In this document: positions 2,038-31,893 of the stretch, piece after piece
Layout of the letters: each line of letters starts with the position of its first letter
How positions within the stretch are numbered: position 1 is the stretch's first letter
Assembly (NCBI RefSeq): GCF_000376445.1
Contig: NZ_AQXI01000004.1
Coordinates: forward strand, 62,001 to 126,000
DNA from: Haladaptatus paucihalophilus DX253
GTDB lineage: Archaea; Halobacteriota; Halobacteria; Halobacteriales; Haladaptataceae
Direction of reading: 5' to 3'
DNA length: 64,000 nucleotides
Program-made: the position numbers and the translations under genes
Notes under the pieces: model-generated
What the model was told of the DNA's origin: nothing
What the model saw: only the letters and a program-made list of their open reading frames with translations
Database searches by the model: none

Positions 2038-2178
2038 TTCGTTGCCAAATATCTCTCTGGTGATCCGATAGCGTGACGGAAAACCCCTCACGGGCCCATT
2101 CGAGAGTAGAACATCGGTAACAAATCGGTCGGTGGGACTATTGGAGATACAAACGATACCGAGTCATCTGTCACACTA

Positions 2179-2361
2179 TCATCGTACGGGATTCAATGAG
2201 AGCAGCGGTTGTGTTGCGTGCCGTTGCGTTCCGTCTTCCAGATATCTCTCCAGTTGGGCTTCAAACTCGTGTTCGGTGATTTCTCCCCTCACGTAGCGAG
2301 AATGCACCTCGTTACGAGCGCCGAAAAACTCGCTGCAGCTCTCGTTCGGATCCTCATTAGG
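2179..2361 (-). pseudogene. C-terminal remnant of a SHOCT-like small protein
   Basis: Read on the minus strand from an upstream in-frame TAA near 2365, the sequence gives EVHSRYVRGEITEHEFEAQL and a short tail ending at 2179. The 'RYVRGEITEHEFE' core is the amphipathic 'RYARGEIdxxEFE' motif of SHOCT-type oligomerisation tails in haloarchaeal membrane and regulatory proteins. No start codon precedes it. It abuts the end of the decayed IS6 element at 2398, so its 5' part was probably lost in that insertion. Confidence 0.45.
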
Positions 2362-2397
2362 ATATTAATGAGGAGCACGGACTGTAATGTCTGAAAC

Positions 2398-2940
2398 GGC
2401 ACTGTCTAGTTTAGCTCCTCTTCGACAGGCGTTCGGTTGTTGAGCGATTGATGCGGTCTCTGATGGTCATTGTAATGCACAAACTGTTCAATACAACTCC
2501 GAACGATCGGCCGACCGACCATCCACAACGTATGGAAGCGGTTGATGAGATATTTGAGCGTATGAAATTACGTTTCGATCATATTCTGATCTGTGTATTT
2601 AAGCCAACCGTGAAACGAAATTCGAAAGAGAGCGATTTGATAGCTGTAGTTCTCGGAGAGAAACACAGCCCTCGAAAAGTCGTATATCTCGGCTAATTCA
2701 TCCAGAAACGAAGCGCCGGGTCAGTGCCATTCCGATCAAACACTGTGACATCGAACAACAGTTTTGTTTCGGCGACTATTGTATTATATACACAAGACTA
2801 TCTGCCGTTGATTTTGACAGCGGTTTCGTCCACCGCGACCCACGTCGGCGTCGCGATAGAACCCTACTATCGCACTATATCATCAATTTAGAATCATATC
2901 TGTTCCATGTTGCTATACTGAATTCGCTGGTTGTGAAGAT
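2398..2940 (-). mobile_element. Decayed IS6-type insertion sequence
   Basis: The end ggcactgtctagtttagct at 2398 matches the reverse complement of the right terminal repeat of the intact IS6-type element at 15720-16555. Minus-strand translation yields recognisable transposase pieces in shifted frames: 'ATPTWVAVDETAVKING', which contains the first catalytic Asp, then 'ETKLLFDVTVFDRNGTDPA'. These are broken by several stops and frameshifts. The opposite terminal repeat is not found, so the 5' end is lost. It is a non-functional relative of the 15.7 kb element. Confidence 0.75.
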
Positions 2941-3249
2941 GAGGCTTTGGATCGCGTGAACCACCGGTATGAGACTTTTTCCGGTCAGAATCGAGGTCCA
3001 TGGCTCAAAGAAAAGAGAAAGGAGACATGACCAACCGACGAGAACAACGAAAGCACGAGGGCAGAACAGTACGGTGGCTATCGAAGTCACTCGGTCGGAA
3101 CCGAGAACCGGACTATCCGACGCCAGTCGATCGTTGCACCGACGCGAGAACCTGCGCGGCAGAGAGAGCGGGACTCCCTCTAGTATGTATAAGGAGTATT
3201 GATTCTGTCCGGCGAAGATTTTATACCGTGGATTGAGAGACACTACCAC
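2941..3249. promoter_or_regulatory. Gap with leaderless aroD promoter
   Basis: No convincing gene is present; overlapping short frames are Arg-rich shadows. A TATA-like tttatacc lies at 3219-3226, about 27 bases before the ATG at 3250. This is the spacing expected of a leaderless haloarchaeal transcript and supports 3250 as the aroD start over upstream alternatives. Confidence 0.5.
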
Positions 3250-3984
3250 ATGAAACTGGATGGCTTCGCACTGGCTGCAACAACAAACGACCTCACACGA
3301 GAACCGGAGGCTCGTGAAGCAGCGGATGTCCTCGAATTCCGGATGGACAGCGCACAAGACCCAATTGGGCAACTTCGTGAGTACGACGGGGCGCTCCCGA
3401 TAATCGCCACGAACCGCACGAAATGGTTCGGCGGTGAGGCGAACGACACTGGCCGACTAGACCGCCTTGCCGCGGCGTCCCGCTTCGACGCGGTCGAACT
3501 CGTAGATATCGAGTTGGAGACTGCCCGTGCGATGGGGTGGATTCTCAATGAATTCCGACAGAACAATGTGAAGCTCATCATCTCGCATCACGATTTCAAA
3601 GAGACACCGGATCAAGATGTGCTCGACGCTATATTTGAGCAGTGTGCCCAATACGGGGACGTCGCGAAAGTCGCGACGTATCCGCAGAACAACGATGACG
3701 TACTCCGTCTTCTGAAGGCCATCGGTACAGCAACGAACGACGGGATGAACGTAGCAGGGATCTCGATGGGCGGTATCGGGAGTCACAGCCGCGCCGTCGC
3801 ACCGCTCTATGGCTCGAAACTTGGATATGCACCCCTCGCTTCGGACACCAACGAGTACGCTCCGGGACAGATCCCACTGAAGAAACTGTCCGTGCTCGTT
3901 GAAATCCTCCAGACGGCGAGTGAGGATGTCGACGAACTCGAGTCGTTGACCGAGAAACTCGTTGATCGGGAGACGTTCGCGTAG
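3250..3984 (+). CDS. aroD: 3-dehydroquinate dehydratase, type I
   Basis: This 244-residue enzyme converts 3-dehydroquinate to 3-dehydroshikimate in the shikimate pathway. Type I (class I aldolase-fold) features are visible: LEFRMD (E29, R31) near the first strand, ELVDIE around residue 84, SHHDF with the general-base His at 114, and the Schiff-base Lys in AKVATYP (K140). The phosphate-loop-like ISMGGIGSHSR and the C-terminal APGQIP follow. Length is normal for the family. It is followed by an ACT protein and homoserine dehydrogenase on the same strand. Haloarchaea are thought to make dehydroquinate from aspartate semialdehyde, so the neighbours are metabolically linked. A catabolic quinate/shikimate role is a weaker alternative. 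Confidence 0.88.
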   Translation: MKLDGFALAATTNDLTREPEAREAADVLEFRMDSAQDPIGQLREYDGALPIIATNRTKWFGGEANDTGRLDRLAAASRFDAVELVDIELETARAMGWILNEFRQNNVKLIISHHDFKETPDQDVLDAIFEQCAQYGDVAKVATYPQNNDDVLRLLKAIGTATNDGMNVAGISMGGIGSHSRAVAPLYGSKLGYAPLASDTNEYAPGQIPLKKLSVLVEILQTASEDVDELESLTEKLVDRETFA

Positions 3985-27997: not shown

Positions 27998-28897
27998 TCA
28001 GTACGCTTTTGTGGCTACTGATGACCCACTGCTATCGGAGATCGAAACGGTGTCACCGCCGTTGTTCCATACGGCAGTCGAGCGGCCCCAGAAGACATCG
28101 CTACTCGTGTCTGACCCGCTCCCCGAATGAAGCGTTACCGTCTGGCCTGGACTGAGCGTCAGACTGGAGAACGTGTACGTTTTCCCCGATTCGTCCGTAA
28201 CGGTCCACCCAGAGAGATCGATTGATGTGGAACCAGTATTTTCGAAAACGACGTATTCGTCGTTCAGGTTGTCGTTGTCGTTCCCCGCTGCATCCTCGTG
28301 AATCTGGGAAATACTCACAGACGCATCACCGCTACCAACATTTCGACAGGTCCACGCATTCTGTTCGGTGTTCTGGGCTGACGATTCGGCACTGTAGTAG
28401 GAACTACTCTTGGAGAATGTCGAGTCGTATACCCGGGCTTGGCCACTCTCGATGAGTTTGTAGTTGTAATCCTCACCACCGTAGTACACGTAGGCGAGAA
28501 GACGACCATAGTAGCCTCGGTGGTCCGATTCAGAATCGAATTTGAGCGTTATCTGTTTGCCTTCGAGGTTGTTTTTCATGAACGACTTCGCGTCCTCGCC
28601 CTCCGAGTGGAGACAATCCTTCCCAGCCTGTGTATTTGGAACGCCTTCCCACTCATCGGGCGTATTTTCACCGTACGTTTCTGGGGTATCGACGCCCAAC
28701 AATCGAACGGTATCGGTGGTTCCGTTTTCATATTGGACGTCGAGGGTATCGCCATCAACGACGTTCGTTACCGTCACTTGTTGGCTACCGCTTATCTCAG
28801 CGGTGGCTGGTGTGACGATGATTGCGGCTGTTACGCCACAGATGAGCAATGACGATAGCACTACTACAGCGAACGTATATTTATTATCTTCTACCAC
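27998..28897 (-). CDS. Exported thermonuclease (SNase) with lamin-tail domain
   Basis: The protein has 299 residues. A single N-terminal hydrophobic segment (residues 8-33) ends near ATAEI and acts as a Sec signal or anchor. The staphylococcal-nuclease fold follows, with VVDGDTL (D48, D50), VRLLGVDTPET (R65, D70, E73) and YYGRLLAYVY (R132) in catalytic order. Residues about 195-299 form a lamin-tail-like beta sandwich (NDEYVVFENTGSTSIDLSGW). It would degrade DNA or RNA outside the cell. It lies just left of two secreted peptidoglycan hydrolases, separated by pseudogenes. Confidence 0.88.
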   Translation of the reverse strand: MVEDNKYTFAVVVLSSLLICGVTAAIIVTPATAEISGSQQVTVTNVVDGDTLDVQYENGTTDTVRLLGVDTPETYGENTPDEWEGVPNTQAGKDCLHSEGEDAKSFMKNNLEGKQITLKFDSESDHRGYYGRLLAYVYYGGEDYNYKLIESGQARVYDSTFSKSSSYYSAESSAQNTEQNAWTCRNVGSGDASVSISQIHEDAAGNDNDNLNDEYVVFENTGSTSIDLSGWTVTDESGKTYTFSSLTLSPGQTVTLHSGSGSDTSSDVFWGRSTAVWNNGGDTVSISDSSGSSVATKAY

Positions 28898-29718: not shown

Positions 29719-30120
29719 CTACTCTCCGACAACCCCGTCTGTGGTCGGACCATCGTCCGTAGTTTTGCTGTTTACTTCACCGGGCAGCTCGACATCCAAC
29801 TCGTGGACGAGACGTGTCTCTTGGTAGCTCAGTCCGTCTTTGGACCGTTGGCGTTTGATTCTCCCGAGCCGTCCATTCGAGAGTCGCATCGCATTTGCCC
29901 CCACACTAATGCTCATCACCATGTCGCCGACAACGACTGCCACGATGACGTTCACGAGGCCAAACGGCATCCCAATGGCCAGCAGCGTTTTGATACCGAG
30001 ACTTGTCCCGATGTTCTGGCGAATCACTGATGTCGCCGTTTGGGACACCCCGGCGACATACGGAAGTCTGGTGAGATCGCCACTCAATAAGGCAATGTCT
30101 ACCGTCTCAAGAGCGGACAA
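29719..30120 (-). pseudogene. C-terminal fragment of a heavy-metal P-type ATPase
   Basis: About 133 codons start in the middle of the P-domain end: ALETVDIALLSGDLTRLPYV, followed by RQNIGTSLGIKTLLAIGMPF and the last helix with 'VVGDMVMSISVGANAMRL'. This is the terminal helix pair of P1B ATPases (Zn/Cd/Cu exporters). The ATP-binding and phosphorylation domains are missing, so it is non-functional. The fragment's 5' edge abuts the promoter of the peptidoglycan amidase gene, placing a deletion or insertion boundary there. Confidence 0.8.
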
Positions 30121-30183: not shown

Positions 30184-31044
30184 ATGCCCACAAATAGGCG
30201 CGACGTACTGAAGCAACTCGGAACGATCGGCGCAGCCGGACTTGGGAGTGTCGGGCTGACTGGAACGGCGAGCGCACATGTACAAGATCCCTACGCCGAC
30301 AGATGGATTGCAGCGGACTCTAGCAACTACACCAACGACAACAAGAGCGCGAGCGAAATCAACTGGATAATTATCCATGTCACGGAGGGGAGCTACGAAG
30401 GGACCGTCAGTTGGTTTCAAAATCCCGACTCCGACGTGAGTACTCAGTATGTGATTCGCAACTCCGATGGCCATGCTACCCAGATGGTCCACAACGAAGA
30501 CAGTGCATGGCATGGTGGTGGCCAGAACTACAGCTTCCACTCGATTGGTATCGAACATGAGGGTTTCGTCGGCGAGACGAACTTCACCGACGCACTGTAC
30601 CAGAAATCCGCCAACATTGTGAGCTGGGCTTGCGACACCTACGGCATTCCCAAACAGCGCCCCACCGGCGTTGCTCCGTGTGACGCCCGCAACGGTGGCG
30701 GTATCATCGGGCACCACCAGGTGCCTGAATCTGACTGCAACTACAATGACCACACTGACCCTGGTTCGACGTGGGATTGGGATTACTTCATGGACCTCGT
30801 CGGCGGCAGCAATGGCGGCGGTAACAAGTTCGCTGACGGTGACCGCGTTACGCCGACCACCAATCTGAATACACGGGAACAGCCTGGAACTGATCAGCCC
30901 ATTGTGGCTACGATTTCACCGGGCGAAGTCGGCGAAATCATGAACGGCCCAATCGACAAGGGTGGCTATCGATGGTGGGGCGTTCACTGGCTCGACCGAA
31001 ACGTCTGGGGCTGGTCGGTTGAACGCTATCTTAGCTACGCATAG
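30184..31044 (+). CDS. Tat-exported N-acetylmuramoyl-L-alanine amidase with SH3-like domain
   Basis: The protein has 286 residues. The Tat signal TNRRDVLKQLGTIGAAGLGS ends at TASA (about residue 31). The Amidase_2/PGRP fold follows: IIIHVTEG (H65), catalytic IGIEHEGF (E124), GIIGHHQVP (H177) and HTDPG (D192), the zinc and catalytic positions of peptidoglycan amidases. After a Gly/Asn linker, residues 222-284 form an SH3-like domain almost identical to that in the M23 gene opposite. The enzyme should cut the muramyl-L-Ala bond of bacterial peptidoglycan. The producing archaeon has none, so the target is presumably other cells. Confidence 0.9.
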   Translation: MPTNRRDVLKQLGTIGAAGLGSVGLTGTASAHVQDPYADRWIAADSSNYTNDNKSASEINWIIIHVTEGSYEGTVSWFQNPDSDVSTQYVIRNSDGHATQMVHNEDSAWHGGGQNYSFHSIGIEHEGFVGETNFTDALYQKSANIVSWACDTYGIPKQRPTGVAPCDARNGGGIIGHHQVPESDCNYNDHTDPGSTWDWDYFMDLVGGSNGGGNKFADGDRVTPTTNLNTREQPGTDQPIVATISPGEVGEIMNGPIDKGGYRWWGVHWLDRNVWGWSVERYLSYA

Positions 31045-31146
31045 GCACTTCGGTCGATCACTTTTAAGAATTCATTGTTCACGGAATTTGATGTCGGATG
31101 ACAATAAAGACGGGTGGGAAATTTGACTACTGCGACGGACGTGGGT

Positions 31147-31893
31147 TCAGATGCCGGAGTAGTCTTTCGGAATCTTGGTTCCTGCTGTGACAGTCTCACC
31201 GTCGCCACCAGGAATCGAGAGGTGATTCCCGTTTCGCTCGACGGTAAAGTGGAGGTGTGGACCAGTCGAATTTCCGGTGGTACCCATTCCGCCGATCAAT
31301 TGACCGCGCGAGACGCTCTCACCTTCGACCACGTCGAAGCTATTCAGGTGGCAGTACATCGTCTGGTAGCCGTTTCCATGGCCTATTTTGAGGTAGTTAC
31401 CACAGCCCCCCGCCTCGTAGGCTCGAACATCAACGGTGCCGCTGTGGGCTGCATAAATTGGTTCACCAATATTGCCGTTGGCGCCAATATCCACGGCATA
31501 ATGACCGGGACGTGCACCGTATGGCGATGTGATGTAGCCTGAAATCGGCCAATCGAAATCCGACCCACCACTGCCGCCAGATGTGGATTGGAGGTACCGC
31601 TCGACGGACCAGCCCCAGACGTTTCGGTCGAGCCAGTGGACGCCCCACCACGTATACCCGCCTTTGTTCGTCGGACCGTTCATGATTTCGCCGACTTCAC
31701 CAGGATTCACGGTAGCGACGATGGGTTGGTCAGTTCCAGGTTGTTCGCGCGTATTCAGATTAGTCGTTGCTGCGATGCGCTCTCCATCGGAGAACGCACT
31801 CGCTGATCCGCTCAGTGCTGCCATTCCGGTGAGTCCTGTAGCTGTAACTCCGAGCGATTTGACGATTGATCGTCGGCTGAACTTTCGTGACAT
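31147..31893 (-). CDS. Tat-exported M23 (LytM-type) peptidoglycan endopeptidase with SH3-like domain
   Basis: The protein has 248 residues. The Tat signal FSRRSIVKSLGVTATGLTGM ends at SASA. The SH3-like domain (residues 42-101) comes first, then a Gly/Ser linker, then the M23 domain with all four functional positions: GHYAVDIG (H131, D135), YCHL (H182) and GPHLHF (H213, H215). M23 enzymes hydrolyse cross-bridges in bacterial peptidoglycan. The domain order is the reverse of the amidase. It converges on the amidase gene with 100 bases between stops. ATG 31893 is supported by a TATA box at 31917-31927. Confidence 0.92.
   Translation of the reverse strand: MSRKFSRRSIVKSLGVTATGLTGMAALSGSASAFSDGERIAATTNLNTREQPGTDQPIVATVNPGEVGEIMNGPTNKGGYTWWGVHWLDRNVWGWSVERYLQSTSGGSGGSDFDWPISGYITSPYGARPGHYAVDIGANGNIGEPIYAAHSGTVDVRAYEAGGCGNYLKIGHGNGYQTMYCHLNSFDVVEGESVSRGQLIGGMGTTGNSTGPHLHFTVERNGNHLSIPGGDGETVTAGTKIPKDYSGI

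Follow-up and report, generated by a model that had tools for sequence, protein, structure and literature searches.

Convergent genes for two predicted secreted peptidoglycan hydrolases with a common SH3-like module in the haloarchaeon Haladaptatus paucihalophilus

The window analyzed here, a stretch of 64,000 nucleotides from the 317-kb contig C4 of Haladaptatus paucihalophilus DX253, carries two adjacent genes for enzymes of the peptidoglycan-cutting type and raises the question of what such enzymes do in an archaeon. A sequence-only reading had argued that the target polymer is lacking in the host and had proposed an antibacterial offence system. The first part was borne out, as a search of the host genome (4.32 Mb, six contigs) revealed no PBP transpeptidase. 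The following features of the window are of importance for the second part:

30184..31044, + strand: Amidase_2 gene, predicted Tat-secreted N-acetylmuramoyl-L-alanine amidase with a C-terminal SH3-like module, 286 aa
30829..31032, + strand: SH3-like (SH3b-type) module of the amidase (contig C4:92829-93032)
31147..31893, - strand: M23 gene, predicted Tat-type secreted endopeptidase, LytM/zoocin-like, with an N-terminal SH3-like module, 248 aa
31591..31794, - strand: SH3-like module of the M23 enzyme (contig C4:93591-93794)
27998..28897, - strand: protein with SNase (PF00565, 4e-17) and lamin tail (PF00932, 1.3e-24) domains
29719..30120, - strand: ORF of 133 aa, no Pfam match

Catalytic domains and export signals of the two enzymes

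The convergent arrangement was confirmed. Both genes lie tail to tail with about 100 bases between the stop codons, and the products matched Amidase_2 (PF01510, E 1.3e-25) and Peptidase_M23 (PF01551, E 2.7e-28) far above the cut-offs. The catalytic residues, described as complete from the single sequences, were also retained on alignment with relatives. The zinc ligands (H65, H177 and D192) and the catalytic Glu (E124) of the amidase are invariant in 14 haloarchaeal sequences, and in our reading of the alignment the position of the catalytic Lys of AmpD is occupied by H190 within the HTDPG motif. In the M23 enzyme the HxxxD/HxH residues H131, D135, H182, H213 and H215 are all present; across 19 relatives D135, H182 and H213 are invariant and H131 and H215 nearly so. 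A comparison of predicted structures, which had been suggested together with the first description of the pair, was performed; the mean pLDDT of the two models was 70 and 80, which corresponds to moderate confidence. The amidase model resembled AmpD, the top structural match, as well as PlyL and AmiA, and the M23 model resembled ShyA, Csd, DipM, lysostaphin and zoocin A.

The M23 protein was additionally compared with NF052336, the NCBIfam equivalog of Woldo from Halogranum. The match extends over the M23 part (E 1.6e-57), which identifies this domain as a relative of the Woldo described by Strock et al. Membership in the equivalog itself was ruled out by a score of 195.3 bits against a cut-off of 500 and by the absence of a PG_binding_1 (PF01471) match in the protein. 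M23 proteins annotated as peptidoglycan-binding are also located on plasmids of about 600 kb from other Haladaptatus strains (NZ_CP119792.1, NZ_CP119783.1 and NZ_CP120472.1); they are 51-52% identical over the M23 domain and possibly of the Woldo type.

Tat signals had been assigned to both proteins. This holds for the amidase, which passed the NCBIfam Tat model (18.9 bits, cut-off 16.7); the M23 enzyme, which is not among the matches listed for this model, has an obvious twin-arginine motif (SRRSIVK) in its leader sequence. Neither a lipobox nor a C-terminal anchor is evident in the two sequences, so that release of the enzymes after export is likely. The mature proteins are acidic, with pI values of 4.6 and 5.2. 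Comparison with Haladaptatus and Halocatena relatives yielded dN/dS values of 0.05-0.11 (0.05-0.08 for the amidase), and both genes are therefore maintained under strong purifying selection. AT-rich, TATA-like stretches can be read 5' of both genes; a promoter scan of the pair remained near chance level, but the scan models bacterial and not archaeal promoters.

Site of the pair and neighboring genes

The annotated neighbors of the pair are the nuclease and Bles03-like, Polbeta-like, MATE, TetR and DUF389 proteins. Among them no immunity gene was recognized, and no genes for peptidoglycan sensing or regulation were recognized near the pair. The ORF at 29719..30120 may correspond to the C-terminal end of a P-type ATPase for heavy metals and is possibly a remnant adjoining the pair. 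The thermonuclease-like gene (27998..28897) is located 1.3 kb from the amidase gene, and its secreted product is a possible accessory of the hydrolases. YIM A00010 encodes a nuclease with 48% identity to it (L054:9159-9848) at a distance of about 2.2 kb from the hydrolase cluster, whereas all other hydrolase loci examined lack such a gene.

These nucleases are in line with a nutritional role, in which the hydrolases would digest the walls of dead bacteria and the neighboring nuclease the freed DNA. The Opp/MppA uptake pathway is moreover enriched in genomes with archaeal peptidoglycan hydrolases, and Strock et al. left scavenging possible (PMC12352652). As weak evidence against such a role, no MurNAc-6-phosphate etherase (MurQ) above the cut-off was found in the host genome, which gave only weak matches like those of control archaea. 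Related enzymes also kill live bacteria (PMC12352652), yet killing and scavenging are compatible. We regard scavenging as rather unlikely to be the explanation, but as a live reading beside antibacterial offence, which is one of at least two such readings and whose general idea has already been published (PMC12352652).

The host has further enzymes of this kind. On the main contig, the module is also present in a third enzyme; this Tat-secreted lytic transglycosylase (SLT_2, 7e-12) has the expected catalytic residue Glu64, which is invariant in 12 relatives. The genome contains, in addition, another Tat-type amidase that lacks the module. The GC content is 0.65 in the transglycosylase gene compared to 0.56-0.57 in the hydrolase genes of the pair. 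On contig C4 it is uneven (0.54 in the window, 0.615 in C4:1-20000), and samples of the main contig range from 0.61 to 0.645. Contig C4 is likely, though not certain, to be a plasmid, perhaps a megaplasmid.

In other Haladaptatus genomes the genes of the pair lie apart, each at a conserved site of its own. The amidase gene is found between genes which we interpret as RNase Z and DUF460 in four genomes, and the M23 gene beside genes interpreted as an aminotransferase and an RNA methyltransferase in five. A conserved two-gene unit can therefore be ruled out. In the genome of the window the neighbors of the M23 site are retained but the M23 gene is missing from it, and at DUF460 the amidase gene is missing; RNase Z is not beside DUF460 either. 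Since the sites of the sister species are empty here, it is probable that the genes either moved to a new location or gave way to copies, and then met tail to tail on contig C4. The first interpretation of the pair is supported in part: the complementary chemistries do co-occur across haloarchaea, but the convergent arrangement is local to this genome.

The SH3-like module and clusters of unlike hydrolases

To assess co-occurrence, as had also been suggested for the pair, we used 292 haloarchaeal genomes, each at least 90% complete. The amidase was present in 36 of them, the M23 domain in 14, the module in 33 and the transglycosylase in three. Of the 14 genomes with M23, 12 likewise encode the amidase (Fisher p 1.5e-10), and at genus level the ratio is 7/9 (p 8.5e-5); both p values are optimistic, as related genomes are not phylogenetically independent. 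All 33 genomes with the module contain the amidase or M23. Among the 12 genomes with both enzymes, three have them within 5 kb; for a genome of 4 Mb we estimate a chance frequency of about 0.25% per pair. Unlike hydrolases repeatedly cluster in haloarchaea, with up to three in a row:

L086: GH73-SH3, SH3-M23 and SH3-amidase, followed by an alpha/beta hydrolase, all on one strand
L055 (Halocatena marina): transglycosylase-SH3, SH3-M23, SH3-amidase; L087 has the same layout
L054 (YIM A00010) and L057 (Halocatena pleomorpha): transglycosylase-SH3, then SH3-M23
L071 (Haladaptatus): GH73-SH3 followed by SH3-amidase (2178-3402, apparently frameshifted)
L078: amidase, then SH3-M23

According to spacing and strand these clusters would represent operons. 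The M23 ORF of L078 appears to be cut at its start and the SH3-amidase of L071 appears frameshifted, either by decay or by assembly error. Alpha/beta hydrolases (DUF900/DUF726-like) adjoin the hydrolases, bear the module or are fused to them (L086:3326-4207, L061:4819-6201 and L059:3652-6219). One protein of 855 residues, present in Actinarchaeum and YIM A00013, combines an alpha/beta hydrolase part, checked with Pfam in Actinarchaeum, with four modules and an amidase part that is 70% identical to the amidase of the window. One may speculate that the alpha/beta hydrolase assists the wall-cutting enzymes by attacking lipids of bacteria or esters in the wall.

The module consists of about 68 residues. 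At the protein level the amidase copy is 85% identical to the M23 copy and 90% identical to the copy in the lytic transglycosylase of the chromosome, and the DNA of the two copies of the pair is 77.9% identical in inverted orientation. Their synonymous sites are near saturation (pS 0.69), which rules out a recent duplication within the window. Together with the small change in protein this value points to strong constraint on the module, perhaps exerted by one common ligand. Both copies reached only 15.6-15.7 bits with Pfam SH3_3 (cut-off 27), and even at E 0.01 this family was matched by no more than 4 of 14 amidase relatives and 10 of 19 M23 relatives. Nevertheless, the SH3-like domain of the earlier description is real: it is predicted as a beta-barrel (pLDDT about 85-94 in the amidase), it matched SH3 domains in Foldseek, one of them bacterial, and it is weakly similar to known SH3b domains. 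The wall-binding role assigned to it is a matter of interpretation; the SH3b fold and the attached enzymes suggest that the module binds the bacterial wall, and a functional wall-binding feature may be present despite the score below the cut-off.

The module was detected in all nine Haladaptatus genomes searched, with two to nine copies each, and relatives join it to amidase, M23, lytic transglycosylase and GH73 glucosaminidase (PF01832, 9e-18). In a module tree, which is of low resolution and has too few columns for fine branching, the sequences grouped mostly by lineage and not by enzyme, although enzyme labels were also more clustered than expected by chance. Some modules of unlike enzymes in H. 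pallidirubidus, H. litoreus, H. halobius, H. salinisoli and YIM A00010 differ at a pS of only 0.14-0.29. This is below the mean of 0.47 for modules of the same enzyme between Haladaptatus genomes and suggests that modules were exchanged or converted between enzymes in these genomes. Such a low divergence was not seen in the genome of the window (pS 0.51-0.69), and the genus-wide means are close (0.42 within and 0.47 between genomes).

Related modules also occur on a GH18 chitinase and on alpha/beta hydrolases and hence are not confined to peptidoglycan hydrolases; for this reason the module might bind something other than peptidoglycan. The chitinase-like protein of a related haloarchaeon (L027:19-1695) has two SH3_3 modules. 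A further secreted protein (L028:1003-2028) combines two SH3_3 modules with a C-terminal domain without Pfam match and is possibly another type of hydrolase; a SleB-like identity was unsupported by Pfam.

Modules on a chitinase and the conserved sites in several Haladaptatus genomes would fit a substrate of the archaea themselves, a glycoprotein or exopolymer that is cut during surface remodelling or differentiation. The module is common to four families, however, all of the peptidoglycan-cutting type, and we know of no haloarchaeal polymer that offers bonds for all four. The patchy presence (amidase in 36 of 292 genomes) also argues against such a substrate. Relatives of the enzymes exist in the hyphal, spore-forming strain YIM 93972, but the text of the corresponding paper mentions neither peptidoglycan nor an amidase (PMC10067837). 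Taken together, an archaeal substrate seems improbable to us.

Finally, the genes could be virus-derived lysis enzymes or horizontally acquired genes decaying without present function. The catalytic domains have distant matches among phage endolysins, and the Haladaptatus SH3-amidase copy mentioned above looks frameshifted. The phage matches of the amidase lie at 33% or less, though; its nearest bacterial matches on plasmid records are actinobacterial (Nonomuraea and Streptomyces, about 38-44%) and thus closer, and no relatives of the pair enzymes were found in viral contigs, so that a viral origin of the pair was ruled out. The Tat signals, the acidic mature proteins, the low dN/dS values and the occurrence of the module throughout the Haladaptatus genomes searched contradict this explanation as a whole, and we consider it very improbable.

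Proposed function and comparison with known systems

The reading which we regard as probable, with some reservation, is that the two enzymes are secreted, cut peptidoglycan and belong to a bacteriolytic kit of haloarchaea, and that they jointly lyse bacterial walls. We counted in its favor the domains, the catalytic residues, the folds, the third enzyme with the module, the co-occurrence, the clustering, the lack of a PBP, the lack of viral relatives and the precedent from Halogranum. Amidase and M23 enzyme would be exported in folded form by the Tat pathway and, once released, would diffuse to neighboring bacteria, where the common SH3b-type module would retain them on the wall. The amidase would then cleave the stem peptides from MurNAc, the M23 enzyme the peptide cross-bridges and the chromosomal lytic transglycosylase with the same module the glycan. 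Acting in synergy, the three enzymes could lyse a live bacterial cell. The producer is without peptidoglycan and would be immune, so that no immunity gene is needed.

A more far-reaching model, put forward tentatively and with more doubt than conviction, is a combinatorial system. An exchangeable recognition module, kept alike by intragenomic conversion, would be joined to amidase, endopeptidase, lytic transglycosylase or glucosaminidase, possibly also to the alpha/beta hydrolase, and the products assembled into multi-enzyme wall-lysing operons. If so, the module sequence would record the bacterial target of a lineage. The clusters would then supply guilt-by-association landmarks, which Strock et al. 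called missing: known archaeal antibacterial landmarks were too few for association studies and clustering was by no means guaranteed (PMC12352652). Independently of this model, the clusters make it possible to test whether the enzymes act in synergy, whether the module selects the target and whether genes such as that of the alpha/beta hydrolase are accessories.

Among known enzymes, AmpD, the PlyL/XlyA endolysins and the PGRPs share the fold and the zinc-site residues with the amidase of the window, which in contrast to them is secreted and carries an SH3-like module. Zoocin A and lysostaphin, like the M23 protein, are secreted M23 endopeptidases with a separate targeting domain, which is an SH3b domain in lysostaphin. 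The M23 protein differs from both in its targeting domain, in its Tat export and in that no immunity gene was recognized nearby. From archaea, the GH25 muramidase of Aciduliprofundum boonei, as cited in PMC12352652 and PMC12356512, is an antibacterial wall hydrolase, the role proposed here for the pair, but a single enzyme of an unrelated family.

The secretion of bacteria-killing peptidoglycan hydrolases by archaea has already been published (Strock et al. 2025, PMC12352652; primer PMC12356512): Woldo (M23) and Danwoldo (glucosaminidase) of Halogranum salarium B-1 kill Halalkalibacterium halodurans (PMC12352652). None of the genera Haladaptatus, Halorussus and Halocatena is named in the main text of that paper, whose screening rule requires a Pfam binding domain (PMC12352652). 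As the modules of the pair score below the Pfam cut-off, this rule probably misses both enzymes, and judging from it the pair is probably absent from the census; a whole set of hydrolases with one module probably escapes such a screen. As far as we have searched, it is new that one SH3-like module is attached to enzymes of four chemistries, that unlike hydrolases form multi-enzyme clusters and that modules show signs of homogenization. Woldo and Danwoldo resemble the pair as Tat-secreted haloarchaeal enzymes of unlike chemistries with closely related binding domains. The M23 enzyme of the window has one N-terminal SH3-like domain, whereas Woldo has two C-terminal PG_binding_1 domains, and, unlike in the Halogranum enzymes, the module described here is common to an Amidase_2 enzyme and a lytic transglycosylase.
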